The position numbers were made by a program, and so were the translations under genes. The notes under the pieces are model-generated. The model worked only from the letters and a program-made list of their open reading frames with translations, searched no databases and had not been told where the DNA came from. Of a stretch of 64,000 bases of DNA, positions 1-7,029 are shown piece after piece; within the stretch, counting starts at the first letter, position 1, and each line of letters opens with the position of its first letter. The stretch comes from Planctomycetota bacterium (lineage in GTDB: Bacteria > Planctomycetota > UBA1135 > GCA-002686595), in NCBI GenBank assembly GCA_028823345.1, contig JAPKBR010000001.1, positions 1-64,000 of the forward strand, given 5' to 3'.

Positions 1-967
1 AGCGGCCTAGGGTTCCGTCTACGTTGGCCAAGGCGTCGGTCAAGGTTTCGATGTCTTCCGCAATCTTGGGATCAGTGAGCAATTTACCGATGGTGCCTTC
101 ACCGTCTGCTAAGCGCGCGGTCACACTTGCGAGATCCGAAAGGGTGGTGCGCAGGTCCTCCGCCATGACCTCGTCGGTCAAGAGCGCTCCAATCGTGCCT
201 TTGCCCTCGCGGGCCTCAGTAATGGCCTGCTGGGCATCTGCCAAGAGAATCTCCATGCTGGCGCTGGCGTTGTCGATTCGTTGGGCGAGGGCCGCATCAA
301 AGATCAAACGACCGATCGTGCCTTCACCAAGGTTGATTTGCCGGGTAGTCTCCTCTAGTTGGGAGAAGGTGCCCTCGACACTGCTCACCGCATCGCCGAG
401 GGATTGGCGTAGGGCCTCGTCGGTGACCAGAGCGCCGATGACTCCTTTTCCGTCCCGAATATTACGGACGACTTCGGCCAGGCCGTCGACCGCCTCGCGC
501 AGGCTTTCCCTGTTTTCTTCCAGCACGGAGCCTAGGGTCGAAAGGACATCCGGGCGGGTGGTTCCCATCCACTCGCCTTCGAAGGGTTGGCTGATGGGGC
601 TGCCCGGTTCGATCGATAAGTTCTTGCCACCCAAGACCGTGGCATCGGAAATGGTGATGGCGTGATCCGTAAAAAGCTGCACAGGCGCATCGAGGGAGAG
701 TTCCACTTGAATGCGGCGCTCAGTGGCACTGATCGTGGCGTCAAAAGCCACTTTCTCTACCTTTCCCCAGCGAACGCCAGCTACCAACACGGGGTCGCCG
801 GAGCGCAAGCCTCCGGCGTTGGCAAACCAGACTGTGGCCTTGCCGGTTTCACCGCCCATGGAAAAGTCGCTTTGGAACAGGGTGAACCAAGACAGGACAG
901 CGATGACTCCCACGAAGAAGAGGCCGAGCACTGCGTTGTTGGTAGCGTTGTTGATTTTATTGTTCAT
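1..967 (-). CDS. mlaD: MCE/MlaD-family lipid-transport substrate-binding protein (C-terminus off window)
   Basis: Partial gene; 322 residues are visible and the reading frame is still open at base 1. The N-terminus (MNNKINNATNNAVLGLFF) leads into one membrane helix at about residues 12-31, followed by an MCE domain at about 35-125. After that come at least four repeats opening with a G-x-G-[TV]-I-G-x-L motif, which alternate with predicted helices. MCE proteins form hexameric rings that carry phospholipid between the inner and outer membranes. The start codon overlaps the stop of the upstream ATPase gene by 4 bp (ATGA), so translation is probably coupled. The permease, ATPase and MCE order matches Mla-type ABC transporters. 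The GTIG repeats are longer than E. coli MlaD and may form a periplasmic coiled needle, which is inference. Confidence 0.85.
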   Translation of the reverse strand, partial: MNNKINNATNNAVLGLFFVGVIAVLSWFTLFQSDFSMGGETGKATVWFANAGGLRSGDPVLVAGVRWGKVEKVAFDATISATERRIQVELSLDAPVQLFTDHAITISDATVLGGKNLSIEPGSPISQPFEGEWMGTTRPDVLSTLGSVLEENRESLREAVDGLAEVVRNIRDGKGVIGALVTDEALRQSLGDAVSSVEGTFSQLEETTRQINLGEGTIGRLIFDAALAQRIDNASASMEILLADAQQAITEAREGKGTIGALLTDEVMAEDLRTTLSDLASVTARLADGEGTIGKLLTDPKIAEDIETLTDALANVDGTLGR

Positions 968-1725
968 CGTGCTGGTTCCTGTTGATAGCCCAAAAATGCT
1001 CGAAGCCGCGGGTGACTGGGCTGAAAGAAGGACTCGGTGGGTTCGTCCACCATGACTTTACCTTCGTGGACGAAGAGGACCCTGTCCGCGACCCTCTGAA
1101 GGCATTCGATGCGGTGCTCGACCACGAGGGAGGTGACCCCTAGCTTGTCCGAGACTTCGCGCATGAGGGCGTTGATTGAGCGCGAGATTTCCGGGTCGAG
1201 CCCCGCATTGGGCTCGTCGTAGAGGACCAGTTCCGGACGCGTGATCAAGGCCCGAGCAATGCTCACGCGCTTCTTCATGCCGCCGGAAATCTCGGCGGGG
1301 AAATTCTTGCCTGCGCCGGCCACGTGCACGGTTTCGAGGGCTTCCGCCACTCGCTCCTGGATTTCGGACTCGCTTAGTTTGCCCTGTTCCCGCAGGGGCA
1401 GGGCCAAGTTGTCCTCCACGGTCAGCCAGCCCACCAGTGCGCCTTCTTGGAACACATAGCCCACCCGCCGTCTAAGGGCGCGCAGCTCCTTGGCGCTGAG
1501 GGCGGCGACCTCCTTTCCAAACACCTCTACCGTGCCCGAGTCGGGTTCCATCAGGCCAATTACATGGCGCAGGGCCACGGACTTGCCCGTGCCCGAGCCG
1601 CCCATGATGCCCAGGCATTCCCCCGCGTGGACCTCAAGGTTCAAGCCCGTGAGCACATGCAAGTCACCAAAGGACTTGTGCAAGTCCTTGATGCGCACTA
1701 CCGGTGCTGACCTGTCGCCGCTCAT
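964..1725 (-). CDS. mlaF: Mla-type ABC transporter ATPase
   Basis: 253-residue cytoplasmic ATPase that powers the MCE lipid transporter. Visible motifs are Walker A GGSGTGKS (residues 42-49), Q-loop Gln93, signature ISGGM (146-150), Walker B LVLYDE (167-171 region) and a switch His204 within VVEHR. Full-length for the family. It overlaps the permease gene upstream and the MCE gene downstream by ATGA in both cases, giving a tightly coupled three-gene unit. Methionine and other importer ATPases share the fold, but the MlaE/MCE context decides the call. Confidence 0.9.
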   Translation of the reverse strand: MSGDRSAPVVRIKDLHKSFGDLHVLTGLNLEVHAGECLGIMGGSGTGKSVALRHVIGLMEPDSGTVEVFGKEVAALSAKELRALRRRVGYVFQEGALVGWLTVEDNLALPLREQGKLSESEIQERVAEALETVHVAGAGKNFPAEISGGMKKRVSIARALITRPELVLYDEPNAGLDPEISRSINALMREVSDKLGVTSLVVEHRIECLQRVADRVLFVHEGKVMVDEPTESFFQPSHPRLRAFLGYQQEPAR

Positions 1726-2579
1726 CGGTAAATCATCCAGGTCAAGAAGTAGTTGGCCACGATGATTGTGATCGTTGCGTCACGCACCGCGCGACTGGTG
1801 GCGCGTCCGACGCCGAGGGCACCACCTCTCGCGGAGATGCCCGAGGCGCAAGAGATCAAGGCCACTGCGATCCCAAAGCAGAAGGACTTGAACAGGCCGC
1901 CGAACACGTCCTTTGGTATGGGGATCGTTTGACCCAGGCCTGACAATGAAGAAAAGGCCGAGTCTAGGTACAAGTCCCAACCAACCCCCAACTGTGCGCT
2001 GGCCACAAACCCGCCGCCGATGATGCCGACCATGTCGCTGATGACGGTCATTGCGGGGCAGACGATGGCCAGAGCCACCACTCGGGGCAGCACCAAAAGG
2101 GAGATGCGGTCGATGGACATGACTTCCAAGGCGGTGAGTTCATCCGACACCGACATGGTGCCCATCTCTGCCGCCATGGCCGAACCATAGGTCGAAGCCA
2201 AAACCAGAGCGGTGATGAAAGGGCCCATCTCCCGCGCGATTCCTGCGGCCACTAGGGGACCAATCTGATCTTGTTGTCCGAAACGAGCGAGCTCAATGCC
2301 CGCTTGCAGGGCGAAGATCATTCCGATGAAAACTCCCACCAGGGAGATCACGTGCAGGTTGCCGATCGCGGCGGAACGCACTTGGATCAAGAGCCAACCC
2401 CGGCGTTTGGGGAGGTGATGCAGGCGCGCAAAGACTGCGGCTAAGAGAACCAGCCGGGCACCAGCTTCCTCCAGCAATGCCCGCGGGCCATTGCTGTTCC
2501 AAATCGCATGGCTCATGGCTGCGGCAAAGAGCACGGTCATGAACAGGGGCCACCAGGACGGGAGAGAATCGGGATTCAC
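1722..2579 (-). CDS. mlaE: MlaE-type ABC transporter permease
   Basis: 285-residue inner-membrane permease of the MlaE/YrbE family with several hydrophobic segments. The coupling motif typical of the family is visible as SDELTALEVMSID near the middle of the protein, preceded by a conserved REMGPFITALV-like stretch. It starts 9 bp after the stop of the aromatic-repeat lipoprotein gene, so that lipoprotein is probably cotranscribed. Its stop overlaps the ATPase start (ATGA). It should form the transmembrane dimer beneath the MCE ring. Confidence 0.9.
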   Translation of the reverse strand: MNPDSLPSWWPLFMTVLFAAAMSHAIWNSNGPRALLEEAGARLVLLAAVFARLHHLPKRRGWLLIQVRSAAIGNLHVISLVGVFIGMIFALQAGIELARFGQQDQIGPLVAAGIAREMGPFITALVLASTYGSAMAAEMGTMSVSDELTALEVMSIDRISLLVLPRVVALAIVCPAMTVISDMVGIIGGGFVASAQLGVGWDLYLDSAFSSLSGLGQTIPIPKDVFGGLFKSFCFGIAVALISCASGISARGGALGVGRATSRAVRDATITIIVANYFLTWMIYR

Positions 2580-2588
2580 AGGGAGATC

Positions 2589-4232
2589 CTAGTCAATCGG
2601 GGGCACGATATCGGGGGCCGAGACCTCCGGGGATGGCGAGGTTTCCAATTCGGGGTTGACCTCCAGCTGGATCGGGAGCGGCTGGATGGGGGCCTGCGGT
2701 CCGGTGCTCTGGGTATCCATCCCCGGGGGCATCCGACTGCTGGGAACCCGATCTCCAGGCCAGCCAGGGCCTGGGAAGGAGGGTCGCATGAGTTCAAACC
2801 CCTCCCGTTCTGATTGGCGCCAGCGGATCAGGCCGGCTAAGAGCGAGACCTCGCGCACATCCGAGCCCTCATCGGAATAGTCCCGTCGTGCCCAAAGCAC
2901 CGAAAGGGATCGCCGCTGTTCGTGCCGGTCGCTTTCCTCGCGATAGAGCCCTAGCCAGGTGCGCACCCGTACCTGATCAAAGGCTCGCTCTGCTGTGTAG
3001 AACTCCCACAGCCAGGTGTAGTGTTCATCGATAAAGGCGTAATGGCGTAGGGGGTTGAGCGCGGGCCACGCGATCATTTCCGTGTCCCCGGCTTCATCCC
3101 TAGCGTTGCGCACCAGGGGCCAGAGCTTGCGCCAAGAAGACTTGCGGCCCGCTGAATCCGTGCGATTCCAGGCGTGCCAAAATGGGAAGACCGAGAAACT
3201 CGTACGGTGGTGGCTCTTGTAGGTTTCCTCGCGCAGGTTGACGATGGGCCACAGATACCAAGTGGATTCCAGGCCTTCGCCCTTGTAGTAGGAGTAGAAA
3301 GGGATCACCCGCTGGCGCACGGCCCGTTCGGGGTCGCCACCCTGGAAGACCATCAGGGGCCAGGGACCGTCCCAGGCCCAAAAGCCCGAACGGTCATCCT
3401 TGGTGTAGCCAAAGAAGGGCCACAGGACCGTCCAACTGCGGGACTCTTCCCGCTCCGTTAGGCCAAAGAAGGGCCAGAAGAAGTAGGTCTTTTGGTGCAA
3501 ACCTTCGTCCTTACGCAGATCGTTGGTCTGCCACATGAAGAAGGGCCAAAGGAAGAATTTGCGTCGGTAGCGGCCCTCAAAGCCCTGGTCCCCATACAGG
3601 GGCCAAAGGCGCCAGGATTTCCCCCCGGTCCCTTCGGACCATTGGATCACCGGGAAGAGCACGTTGTGTGTCGTGCGTCCCGCTCGCTCGAAGCGGGCGT
3701 AAAAGGGAAACAGAATCCAGCTGGCCGAGTCGAAGCTGAGGAAGTTCTTCGTGTCGCCATAGAACACGAAGAACGCGCTCTTCTTGTCCCCGTCCGCATC
3801 CCGCGCCAGGTAAATCCCGGGCAACATGAGGAACTGATAGGAGCTGGGCTTGTCCTTCGGATACTGCCGCGCATGGCGCAGGATCGGCAGGAACTGGTGT
3901 ACGGTTTCTTCTGGGCGTTCGAAGCGTTGACCCAGGGGCGGCAAGAGCCAAGCGAAAGAGCGCCCTTCGCCCTGGCGTTGCCAGGAAACAAGGGGGCGCA
4001 GGGCCCAATAGTCCAGCCGCTTGGTCTCTTGATCCCAGCGGGCCAAAGCCGCGCCCCCCAGGGCTTCGATGGCGCTGTCGCCTCCCGCTAGGGACATGTG
4101 CGTGTAAAGGGGCGCAAGGTGGAGGTCTTGGCCAGGGGCGGTGCAAGCGCCGAGGCACCCGAGCAAAGCCATGGCCAAGCCGCGCAGGGAGCGGGTGGTC
4201 GGGGGCTTTCGATTGCGGGGGAGGCGCGCCAT
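2589..4232 (-). CDS. Large lipoprotein with aromatic WPFF-type repeats, in the Mla operon
   Basis: No named family recognised. The start was placed at 4232 because the N-terminus MARLPRNRKPP is then followed by a hydrophobic stretch and a lipobox LGAC, giving Cys30 as the lipidated residue. The frame stays open upstream to 4367, but that extension would bury the signal peptide. The mature part of about 517 residues repeats a unit of roughly 20-30 residues with a core such as LWPFF, FWPFFG or LWPLY, separated by short charged turns. The pattern of aromatic strand plus polar turn suggests a beta-rich barrel or propeller. The C-terminus is Pro/Ser-rich. It is the first gene of the probable mlaEFD operon, 9 bp before mlaE. 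It may be an outer-membrane partner of the transporter, which is inference. Confidence 0.7.
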   Translation of the reverse strand: MARLPRNRKPPTTRSLRGLAMALLGCLGACTAPGQDLHLAPLYTHMSLAGGDSAIEALGGAALARWDQETKRLDYWALRPLVSWQRQGEGRSFAWLLPPLGQRFERPEETVHQFLPILRHARQYPKDKPSSYQFLMLPGIYLARDADGDKKSAFFVFYGDTKNFLSFDSASWILFPFYARFERAGRTTHNVLFPVIQWSEGTGGKSWRLWPLYGDQGFEGRYRRKFFLWPFFMWQTNDLRKDEGLHQKTYFFWPFFGLTEREESRSWTVLWPFFGYTKDDRSGFWAWDGPWPLMVFQGGDPERAVRQRVIPFYSYYKGEGLESTWYLWPIVNLREETYKSHHRTSFSVFPFWHAWNRTDSAGRKSSWRKLWPLVRNARDEAGDTEMIAWPALNPLRHYAFIDEHYTWLWEFYTAERAFDQVRVRTWLGLYREESDRHEQRRSLSVLWARRDYSDEGSDVREVSLLAGLIRWRQSEREGFELMRPSFPGPGWPGDRVPSSRMPPGMDTQSTGPQAPIQPLPIQLEVNPELETSPSPEVSAPDIVPPID

Positions 4233-4344: not shown

Positions 4345-5331
4345 ATGACTACTTTCCTTTCCGGCATTCAGCCCAGTGGCCGACCGCACCTGGGCAACTA
4401 CTTTGGCGCCATTCGCCAGCACGTGGCCTCCCAGGAGGAGGACGGTGAGCACTTTTTCTTCATTGCGGACTACCACGCATTGACCACCGTACAGGACGCC
4501 GAAGCCTTGCGCTCGAACGTGCGCGAGATGGCAGCCACCTACTTCGCCCTGGGGCTTGACCCCAAGCGAGCGGTGTTCTTTCGCCAATCCGATGTGCCTC
4601 AGGTGACCGAGATTACTTGGCTTTTGTCCTGCGTCACGGGCATGGGCTTGCTGGAGCGCGCGCACTCGTTCAAGGACAAGACCGCCAAGGGCATCAAGCC
4701 CTCGGTGGGGCTCTTCACGTATCCGATCCTGATGGCTGCAGATATTCTGGCCTATGACTCGACCATCGTGCCCGTGGGCAAGGACCAGGTGCAGCACGTG
4801 GAGATGGCCCAGGACATGGCTGGTCATTTCAACGCGGCCTTTGACAGTCAGGTTTTTGTGCGCCCAGAGTACCGCTTGCCCGAGACCGATGCCCTGGCCA
4901 AGGTGCCCGGCTCGGACGGAGAGAAAATGAGCAAGAGCTACGGCAACGACCTTTGGATTTTCGAGACGGGCAAACGTCTCAAGAAAGCCGTCGGACGGAT
5001 TTTGACCGACTCCCGGGACCCCTCCGAACCAAAAGACCCCGCGGGGGTCTTGTTGGTGGATTTCTTGGCACTCTTCTTGGAAGACAAAGAGCTCAATGAA
5101 TGGCGCGAGAAAATTCGCGAAGGTGGCGCGAACGCACCCGGTTACGGGCACCTCAAGGTGCGCCTGATCGAGGCTTGGGAAGAGACCTTTGCCCCGGCCC
5201 GCGCACGCTTTGAAGAGTACCTAGCCGACCCCGCTGCCCTCGACGCTACCCTGCTTGTGGGGGCCGAGCGTGCCCGGGAACGGGCCAGCGGTGTGCGCGA
5301 TCGAGCCTATCTCGCCTGTGGCTTGCGTTGA
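4345..5331 (+). CDS. trpS: Tryptophanyl-tRNA synthetase
   Basis: 328-residue class I aminoacyl-tRNA synthetase that charges tRNA-Trp in the cytoplasm. The HIGH-type signature is HLGN (residues 15-18), within SGIQPSGRPHLGN, and the KMSKS loop is exact at 194-198. Length is normal for bacterial TrpS. It is divergent from the lipoprotein/Mla operon, with 112 bp between the two starts that should carry both promoters. No T-box-like leader is recognisable in so short a gap. Confidence 0.97.
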   Translation: MTTFLSGIQPSGRPHLGNYFGAIRQHVASQEEDGEHFFFIADYHALTTVQDAEALRSNVREMAATYFALGLDPKRAVFFRQSDVPQVTEITWLLSCVTGMGLLERAHSFKDKTAKGIKPSVGLFTYPILMAADILAYDSTIVPVGKDQVQHVEMAQDMAGHFNAAFDSQVFVRPEYRLPETDALAKVPGSDGEKMSKSYGNDLWIFETGKRLKKAVGRILTDSRDPSEPKDPAGVLLVDFLALFLEDKELNEWREKIREGGANAPGYGHLKVRLIEAWEETFAPARARFEEYLADPAALDATLLVGAERARERASGVRDRAYLACGLR

Positions 5332-5416: not shown

Positions 5417-5977
5417 ATGAACCAACCTCCCATGCATCAAAGCCCCGTTGGACTGGTCCTTTTGGCACTTTTGGCCAGTTGTGGGGGAGGTCCCCAAAAA
5501 GCGTCAGAGTTCCCTTCCGCCGGATCCGGGCCCCAGCCTCAGACCGAGCCGGCCCCTGCGCCCCTGGGGCAAAACCCCGAGTACTTGGCCGCGGAACCGG
5601 TGCCTAGTCCCTGGACCCAGGCCTTCTTGCAACCGGCGACCTTGCTGGCCGACCGCATTCGGATCGAGGGACCCCATGGGCTGTTGGATCACTTGGTGGT
5701 GCGTTCTGATGATGAGTTCTTCCTGCGCACAGCCAAGACTAAACCCGAAGGGCTCTTGCAAGTTACCCGGCCCCGTCCTTCGGCAGATGTCGAGCTAGTG
5801 GGCGGGCAGTTGGATCGTTGGCAGTTGAGCGCCTTCGAGGAAATCACCGTGTTGATCAATCCGGCCTTACAAAGTGTGCGGGTGATCGCTGAGGGCGATG
5901 CGTTTTGGCGCACGCCCGACGGCACGGAAAAACGCGGGGCCCGCCTGGCTTTTGACGAACCCGTGCAGTTGCCGTGA
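5417..5977 (+). CDS. Putative lipoprotein with a weak OstA/LptA-like C-terminal segment
   Basis: 186 residues from the ATG at 5417. The frame opens earlier at 5255, but only this start gives a signal peptide (GLVLLALLASC) with a lipobox Cys. A Pro/Gln-rich linker follows. The C-terminal half is beta-rich and ends with a segment (AEGDAFWRTPDGTEKRGARL) that resembles the AxGxV..G..A.L repeat of OstA/LptA/LptC LPS-transport proteins. That resemblance is weak and judged by eye. The stop TGA overlaps the next start (TGATG), so it is coupled to the TPR lipoprotein. Function unknown. Confidence 0.6.
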   Translation: MNQPPMHQSPVGLVLLALLASCGGGPQKASEFPSAGSGPQPQTEPAPAPLGQNPEYLAAEPVPSPWTQAFLQPATLLADRIRIEGPHGLLDHLVVRSDDEFFLRTAKTKPEGLLQVTRPRPSADVELVGGQLDRWQLSAFEEITVLINPALQSVRVIAEGDAFWRTPDGTEKRGARLAFDEPVQLP

Positions 5978-7029
5978 TGGGGATTCGCTTGCGCTTGGGG
6001 CATTTGGTTTGTTTTGGTGCCGTGGGACTTTTCGTGGCATGCGCTTCCGCCCCCAAGGCTTGGGTGGTGGGTTGGCAGCGTCCCTATCACGACCTTTCCC
6101 CCGAGGCGCGTGAGGGCTTTGTCCAAGCACGCGGGGATGCCGGGGCCGGCGAGATCGATTCAGCGCTGCAGCAACTCGCCGGACTGATCGAATTCCATCC
6201 CACTAACCTTGACCTGCTGACCTATCGGCAGGATCTCTTGCTTGAGCGATCGCCTAGGGAGGCGGAGGCCCTGGGTGCCGCGGCGCTCTTGCTTGCCCAG
6301 CGCGATCCGCGGCCCACGTGGTTGATTTTGGCCGCCCGCTTGACCGAAAATAGGGAGCAAGCCAAGGCCTTGTTGGAGCAGGCCATAGGTTTGGATCCAG
6401 ACTGCGCAGATGCCCGTTTGGGGTTGGCCGCGTTGGCCTTGGAGGGGGACGAGCGGTATCGCTGGCGCAGTGCCAAGGAGTCCCTGGCCGATTGCCTCGC
6501 CTCGCATCCTGGCCACATGGGAGCCCGGCGTCTGGAGGCTTGGATGTTCTCCCAGGAGGGCAATCCAGCTGCCCCCGCGGCCTTGGCCCGTTGGTTGATT
6601 GCGAGCGATGGGGATCCCCGGGTGCGGCACACGGATCGGGTGGCCGCCGCCTTGGACCTCGCCGCCCTCCACCTTGGGGCGCAGGATCCCGAGCGTGCCC
6701 TCGAAATCTTGGATCGGCTTCAGGGCGAATCCCACCAGCGTCCCCGGCGGCTGGCTCTTTTGGCGGTAGCCAGAAGCGAGAGCGGGGATGAAGACGGAGC
6801 CCTCTGGGCGGTTTCCGCTGCGATTCGCGCGGATCCCACGAATAGTTTGCCGCGGGTGCAGGAAGCCTTATTGCTCGTGTCAAAAGACCCGCTGGTCCAG
6901 GCGGAGGCTTGGGACCGTGTGGTGCAGGTGGCGGGGGAGGGGAAGGGGACCGAACTTGCGGAATTGATCCAGGGCTTGCGCGCCCAGGTGGCGGGTACCC
7001 GTCTGCGCGAGAGTCTGCCCGAGGAATGA
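5977..7029 (+). CDS. TPR-containing lipoprotein
   Basis: 350 residues. ATG at 5977 is chosen over GTG at 5974 because it overlaps the preceding stop as TGATG. A short hydrophobic N-terminus ends in FVAC, a plausible though non-ideal lipobox with Phe at -3. The rest is Ala/Leu-rich and helical, with several TPR-like 34-residue units, for example AKALLEQAIGLDPDCADARL. Such proteins usually act as periplasmic scaffolds. The partner is unknown, and the close coupling to the preceding lipoprotein suggests joint function. Confidence 0.65.
   Translation: MGIRLRLGHLVCFGAVGLFVACASAPKAWVVGWQRPYHDLSPEAREGFVQARGDAGAGEIDSALQQLAGLIEFHPTNLDLLTYRQDLLLERSPREAEALGAAALLLAQRDPRPTWLILAARLTENREQAKALLEQAIGLDPDCADARLGLAALALEGDERYRWRSAKESLADCLASHPGHMGARRLEAWMFSQEGNPAAPAALARWLIASDGDPRVRHTDRVAAALDLAALHLGAQDPERALEILDRLQGESHQRPRRLALLAVARSESGDEDGALWAVSAAIRADPTNSLPRVQEALLLVSKDPLVQAEAWDRVVQVAGEGKGTELAELIQGLRAQVAGTRLRESLPEE

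Follow-up and report, generated by a model that had tools for sequence, protein, structure and literature searches.

At the beginning of the window (the whole stretch of DNA analysed here, 64,000 nucleotides long) lies a minus-strand operon whose first gene (4232..2589, 547 codons, ATG start) encodes a lipoprotein with an aromatic xWPF repeat, here tentatively referred to as the WPF lipoprotein (or WPF-rim lipoprotein). It is followed after 9 bp by the permease gene mlaE (1722..2579, minus strand; PF02405, E=4.5e-61), which begins with GTG at 2579, and then by the ATPase gene mlaF (964..1725, minus strand; PF00005, E=2.3e-32) and the first 322 codons of mlaD (2..967, minus strand; PF02470, E=3.8e-12), which encodes a long MCE protein and lacks its 3' end, being truncated where both the window and the contig begin (base 1). 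Neighbouring mla genes overlap by 4 bp (mlaE/mlaF at 1722-1725 and mlaF/mlaD at 964-967), and the permease, ABC ATPase, and MCE-domain genes identified by Pfam are thus consecutive and coupled, and make up an MlaEFD system. The original prediction, made from the DNA letters, had described a 547-residue aromatic-repeat lipoprotein 9 bp before mlaE and an ATGA-coupled mlaE-mlaF-mlaD series; the open reading frame, lipobox, and spacing were all confirmed, and so was the coupling, with two 4-bp overlaps and with gene identities now assigned by Pfam. Divergent from the operon is trpS (4345..5331, plus strand), a neighbour of conserved position that is outside the system. Past trpS, two adjacent putative lipoproteins are encoded at 5417-7029, one without a family match and the other with TPR repeats.

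As expected of a bacterial lipoprotein, residues 1-30 of the WPF lipoprotein (4143..4232, minus strand; MARLPRNRKPPTTRSLRGLAMALLGCLGAC) comprise a signal peptide with a lipobox ending in LGA-C30, with Cys30 as the residue predicted to be acylated. The lipobox Cys and a [DE]-x-[HN]-L-[AS]-P-like motif after it are both common to most relatives (families f1-f8). The mature region that served as input to structure prediction (2718..4145, minus strand) is followed by a poorly conserved, Pro-rich C-terminal tail (2592..2717, minus strand), which more distant relatives lack or have in a very short form. The pattern [LFWVIM][WF]P[FLIVW] occurs nine times in the 547-aa protein, far exceeding what shuffling its sequence 5,000 times gave (mean 0.43, maximum 4), and the aromatic repeat is therefore not due to chance. 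Across 198 relatives, 16 xWPF units could be aligned, in which the Pro is 98% conserved and the usual spacing is 17-24 residues. Around this Pro, the profile favours L/V/F at position -2, W/F at -1, L/F at +1, and F/Y/V/W at +2, and becomes polar beyond about +/-5.

A planctomycete family linked to MlaEFD

No match to the WPF lipoprotein was found in Pfam or NCBIfam at E<=1, nor any credible family match when 24 of its relatives were scanned singly. A PDB-sequence search returned no clear relative, the BFVD viral library no convincing one, and a literature search no paper that mentions the family. Armadillo matches (E=0.003) were dismissed as chance or composition, as they were to designed repeat proteins.

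The WPF lipoprotein, which is single-copy in its own genome, was found in 58 of a set of 61 related genomes that includes its own, in 148 of the 154 genomes of the order (51/53 among those of good quality), and in 156 of 392 genomes sampled across Planctomycetota. All 59 named loci, collected by a related-locus search seeded with a family-level alignment, are planctomycete or metagenome records, including one from Planctomycetes bacterium Pla163 (L134), an isolate that we take to be Rohdeia mirabilis, which is classified in Planctomycetota. The WPF lipoprotein is thus a conserved, previously unnamed Planctomycetota family. Some genomes contain several copies as unlinked paralogues, with up to 8 matches per genome. 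One divergent paralogue (L059, 5191-7365) has WPxF-like repeats, and no Mla genes were found nearby. At two other loci (L171, 3688-6186; L175, 3101-5620), an FHA-like segment (IGRDxRxDxVIE...SxxH...SKNGTxIDG) lies in frame ahead of the lipoprotein signal and WPF repeats; these open reading frames represent either a true fusion or a start called too far upstream.

In the 59 named loci, the gene is adjoined by mlaE in 58 and accompanied by mlaF in 56, mlaD in 53, and divergent trpS in 55, the mlaF and mlaD counts being lowered by several contigs that end early. Among loci from the same order, the arrangement lipoprotein-mlaE-mlaF-mlaD is kept in essentially all those examined. One explanation of such conservation would be that the WPF lipoprotein is an unrelated structural lipoprotein of the envelope, located beside mlaE merely through conserved gene order, just as trpS is a conserved divergent neighbour without a functional link; the existence of unlinked paralogues such as that at L059 would also fit. 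Phylum-wide, however, trpS is usually gone from these loci, since beyond the closer families it is in most cases no longer a neighbour, while the WPF lipoprotein gene lies immediately 5' of mlaE on the same strand in 53 of 60. Because this coupling persists where trpS is lost, plain conservation of chromosomal order explains it poorly. Furthermore, one rearranged cluster (L192, 2748-6417) retained the gene at a new position between mlaF and mlaD, still inside the mla cluster. An unrelated lipoprotein kept beside mlaE by gene order alone is thus quite improbable. The four-gene order that the original prediction expected to recur in relatives is therefore conserved, the reshuffled L192 included, and the case for a functional link between the WPF lipoprotein and MlaEFD is strong.

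The remaining loci differ: in seven of the 60, L192 among them, mlaE does not directly follow, and in L164, L166, and L168, which represent one lineage, the WPF lipoprotein gene adjoins other genes, away from mla. In view of these seven loci and the unlinked paralogues, the WPF fold is not restricted to Mla. At L164 and L166, the gene comes after a conserved gene of ~300 codons, whose product is presumably a metallophosphoesterase.

Predicted fold of the WPF lipoprotein

The AlphaFold2 model of residues 30-505, computed with a 58-sequence alignment, is almost all beta (pLDDT 93.3, pTM 0.76) and consists of ~45 strands, mostly of 5-8 residues, in an antiparallel meander; a truncated construct reproduces the fold. 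In the model, the connections between strands alternate between a hydrophobic xWPF-type turn and a charged turn. Mean-field covariation provided a check that is independent of the network, although its input is an alignment of similar kind. Over 198 relatives (Neff 167), the score was 4.74 for adjacent strands and 1.78 for distant pairs, with 82% of the pairing antiparallel. In the smaller first alignment, the hairpin signal at the two junction types was 0.87 +/- 0.11 and 0.62 +/- 0.13 at the centre and about zero 2-4 residues off. The top single couplings are noisy at 71 effective sequences, whereas the 198 sequences (Neff 167) resolve many hairpins individually. An alternative in which xWPF is a kink inside one long strand was rejected, as covariation shows a hairpin. 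With hairpins at both junction types, one rim would be formed by hydrophobic, aromatic xWPF turns and the opposite rim by charged ones. Both the model and covariation thus point to a predicted strand meander with amphipathic rims.

An all-beta meander could also be a transmembrane outer-membrane beta-barrel similar to LptD, ushers, or porins, and ushers, porins, TOM40, and VDAC were matched at low Z. Nevertheless, strands of mostly 5-8 residues are too short for a tilted barrel, a 98% conserved Pro sits at each second turn, and the hydrophobic residues gather at one rim and do not alternate within strands. Given the length of the strands and the placement of hydrophobic residues, we rejected the transmembrane barrel, which we regard as highly improbable. 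A beta-propeller was rejected as well, since the propeller matches in Foldseek had a query TM of at most 0.15. Among solved structures, no clear global match to the model was found (VIA gave Z of at most 9.8, at high rmsd, and Foldseek a query TM <=0.18 among the PDB matches listed), and the nearest structures are the single-layer sheets of TCP10, MORN1, OspA, and apoB100, all with Z<10. The OspA, MORN-repeat, TCP10, and apoB100 beta-belt structures resemble the WPF lipoprotein in being long, one-layer antiparallel meanders of short strands, but differ in that no sequence relation was found and in having no xWPF rim or probable closure. Thus, of the two folds that had been suggested for a structure check, barrel or propeller, the model shows no transmembrane barrel and no recognisable propeller, while a membrane-like feature did emerge in the form of the long hydrophobic/aromatic rim. 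The fold is probably new.

Whether the meander is a ring or an open ribbon was assessed from its two ends. In divergent relatives (Neff 108), strands 1 and 40 in antiparallel orientation rank 1/903 among distant pairs of strands, and the residues coupled between them alternate (D7-E404, H9-R402, A11-L400), the pattern expected of beta pairing. The rank is 5/903 over all sequences and 178/903 in close relatives (Neff 59), where the signal is absent, and residue-coupling methods are weak at such alignment depth. When residues 417-476 were deleted, the pLDDT of residues 1-10 fell from 88 to 63, with the rest nearly unchanged. Several usher matches of the full model take in both chain ends, and the best structural matches of the truncated model are open single-layer sheets. 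Closure of ~40 strands into a ring, with strand 1 paired to strand 40, is plausible, in our view somewhat more probable than an open form, and is the least secure step of the model. By arithmetic rather than measurement on the model (40 x 4.8 / pi), a closed 40-strand sheet would be ~60 Angstrom across.

The pTM of 0.76 leaves the global shape uncertain and is compatible with an open, elongated single-layer sheet similar to MORN repeats, OspA, or the apoB belt. Such a sheet, up to ~200 Angstrom long, would lie alongside the MlaD needle in the periplasm, acting as a scaffold or as a slide for lipids and not as a ring in the outer membrane, with lipid possibly bound by the hydrophobic turns along one edge. 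That the top structural matches (TCP10, MORN1, OspA, and apoB100) are open single-layer sheets agrees with this arrangement, albeit at Z<10, while the strand 1-40 covariation and the confidence lost by residues 1-10 without residues 417-476 both suggest that the chain ends meet. We therefore view the open sheet as possible yet doubtful.

MlaEFD and the outer membrane in Planctomycetota

Omp85 is present in 13/13 genomes, indicating that these bacteria are diderm and expected to have an outer membrane. MlaE was found in 59/61 genomes. Homologs of MlaA (PF04333) were detected in 3 of 41 relatives and of MlaC (PF05494) in 1 of 41, and neither in the own genome, which is 88% complete, so that lone absences are weak evidence while the pattern across relatives is not. 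This agrees with the original observation that no MlaA-type partner is recognisable here, as MlaA is lacking in the own genome and in 38/41 relatives. The accompanying claim that Mla systems need an outer-membrane partner went too far, as systems made up of MlaEFD alone, with a long MlaD, are common (PMC10665443). In the PVC group, MlaD was reported to lack the C-terminal beta-barrel seen in other phyla, and the same study of Veillonella invokes "as yet unidentified proteins" where MlaD has no barrel (PMC10665443).

The complete MlaD of a close relative (L291) comprises 398 aa; beyond its single MCE domain it is long and reads as helical. At its C-terminal end, MlaD has a Phe in 84 of 114 distinct sequences, with the typical motif REAAPxxTFxxxLFxxF. 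Repeated GxGT(I/L)GxL units were also observed past the MCE domain, both in the window (2-967) and in relatives. Besides this operon, the own genome contains a second MCE cluster (L287 on contig C78, 4343-7819) that encodes STAS-MlaE, MlaF, an MCE protein of 346 aa, and a lipoprotein of 187 aa that weakly matches PF03886 (PqiC-type; E=0.005, below the cut-off). Each of the two MCE operons in the genome therefore encodes its own lipoprotein. In one relative (G013), MlaE, MlaA, and MlaC are encoded close together (C1, 41405-43942), and pieces of the WPF lipoprotein are located on other contigs, one adjoining a different MlaE; both kinds of systems can thus coexist.

We propose that, in Planctomycetota, the WPF lipoprotein is the part of the MlaEFD lipid transporter that is anchored in the outer membrane, a reading to which we assign a probability of roughly 0.6. 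The kept gene neighbourhood and the predicted rim support and strengthen the original idea of a candidate new outer-membrane part of the lipid pathway, whose outer-membrane location and role with lipids we infer. Signal peptidase II would cleave the lipoprotein, and the acylated Cys30 would anchor it to the outer membrane on the periplasmic side. Once mature, the chain would form a single-layer antiparallel meander of ~45 short strands, probably closing (strand 1 with strand 40) as a flat ring, and the xWPF at every second turn would create a continuous hydrophobic/aromatic belt that dips into the inner leaflet, with the charged rim pointing to the periplasm. Docking at the outer membrane is likely; the WPF lipoprotein would receive the long MlaD needle there and may let lipids pass in one direction or the other. 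In its fullest form, the proposal holds that a closed ring of ~40 strands, with ~20 xWPF turns in one leaflet, is the outer-membrane dock and lipid gate of MlaEFD throughout Planctomycetota, which we advance tentatively and at somewhat less than even odds.

Mostly no match to the LolA and LptD Pfam models was found in these genomes, which weighs against the outer-membrane lipoprotein model. Lipoprotein sorting is poorly known in these genomes, and the gene adjoins the permease gene in the operon; the WPF lipoprotein might accordingly be an accessory or assembly/stability lipoprotein of MlaEFD that is anchored in the inner membrane and does not touch the outer membrane. A tether of this kind, however, would not need a long hydrophobic rim together with an acyl anchor, and the sister MCE operon encodes a PqiC-like lipoprotein, which is of the outer-membrane type. 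In addition, residue +2 of the lipoprotein is Thr, and in E. coli it is Asp at +2, not Thr, that retains a lipoprotein in the inner membrane, a sorting rule that may not be that of Planctomycetota. On balance, an inner-membrane accessory appears unlikely.

With an outer-membrane location, the WPF lipoprotein would resemble MlaA, an outer-membrane lipoprotein working with MlaEFD. MlaA is predominantly helical, in contrast to the almost all-beta AlphaFold2 prediction and repeat architecture of the WPF lipoprotein, and mlaA in E. coli is encoded away from the operon, whereas the WPF lipoprotein gene is inside it. PqiC, the outer-membrane lipoprotein of PqiABC, is likewise encoded in an MCE-transporter operon, and serves PqiB as a toroid located partly in the inner leaflet that takes up the C-terminus of the MCE protein (PMC10897342). 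The two differ in that E. coli PqiC is a 187-aa protein with another domain that forms an octamer, while the WPF lipoprotein is one chain with ~45 predicted strands. Neither PF03886 (ABC_trans_aux) nor PF04333 (MlaA) matched the WPF lipoprotein or any of 24 relatives. The best-supported reading of these comparisons is that it would work like PqiC or MlaA and belongs to neither family. In Veillonella parvula, a long MlaD with a C-terminal beta-barrel addresses the same problem of bridging from MlaEFD to the outer membrane when MlaA and MlaC are lacking; there, the barrel is within MlaD, whereas PVC MlaD is reportedly barrel-less and a separate lipoprotein gene is present here (PMC10665443).

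The WPF lipoprotein is a new component in a known kind of system, and would offer a second case, besides PqiC, of an MCE operon supplying its own outer-membrane lipoprotein. In the PVC group, lipids would have to travel to or from the outer membrane mostly without MlaA and MlaC, and without the barrel that MlaD has in other phyla (PMC10665443). The WPF lipoprotein family represents a strong and concrete candidate for the missing outer-membrane part, with a fold that is probably new. If true, a closed WPF ring would add a new fold of monotopic type and supply the outer-membrane half that has been missing from lipid transport in Planctomycetota.
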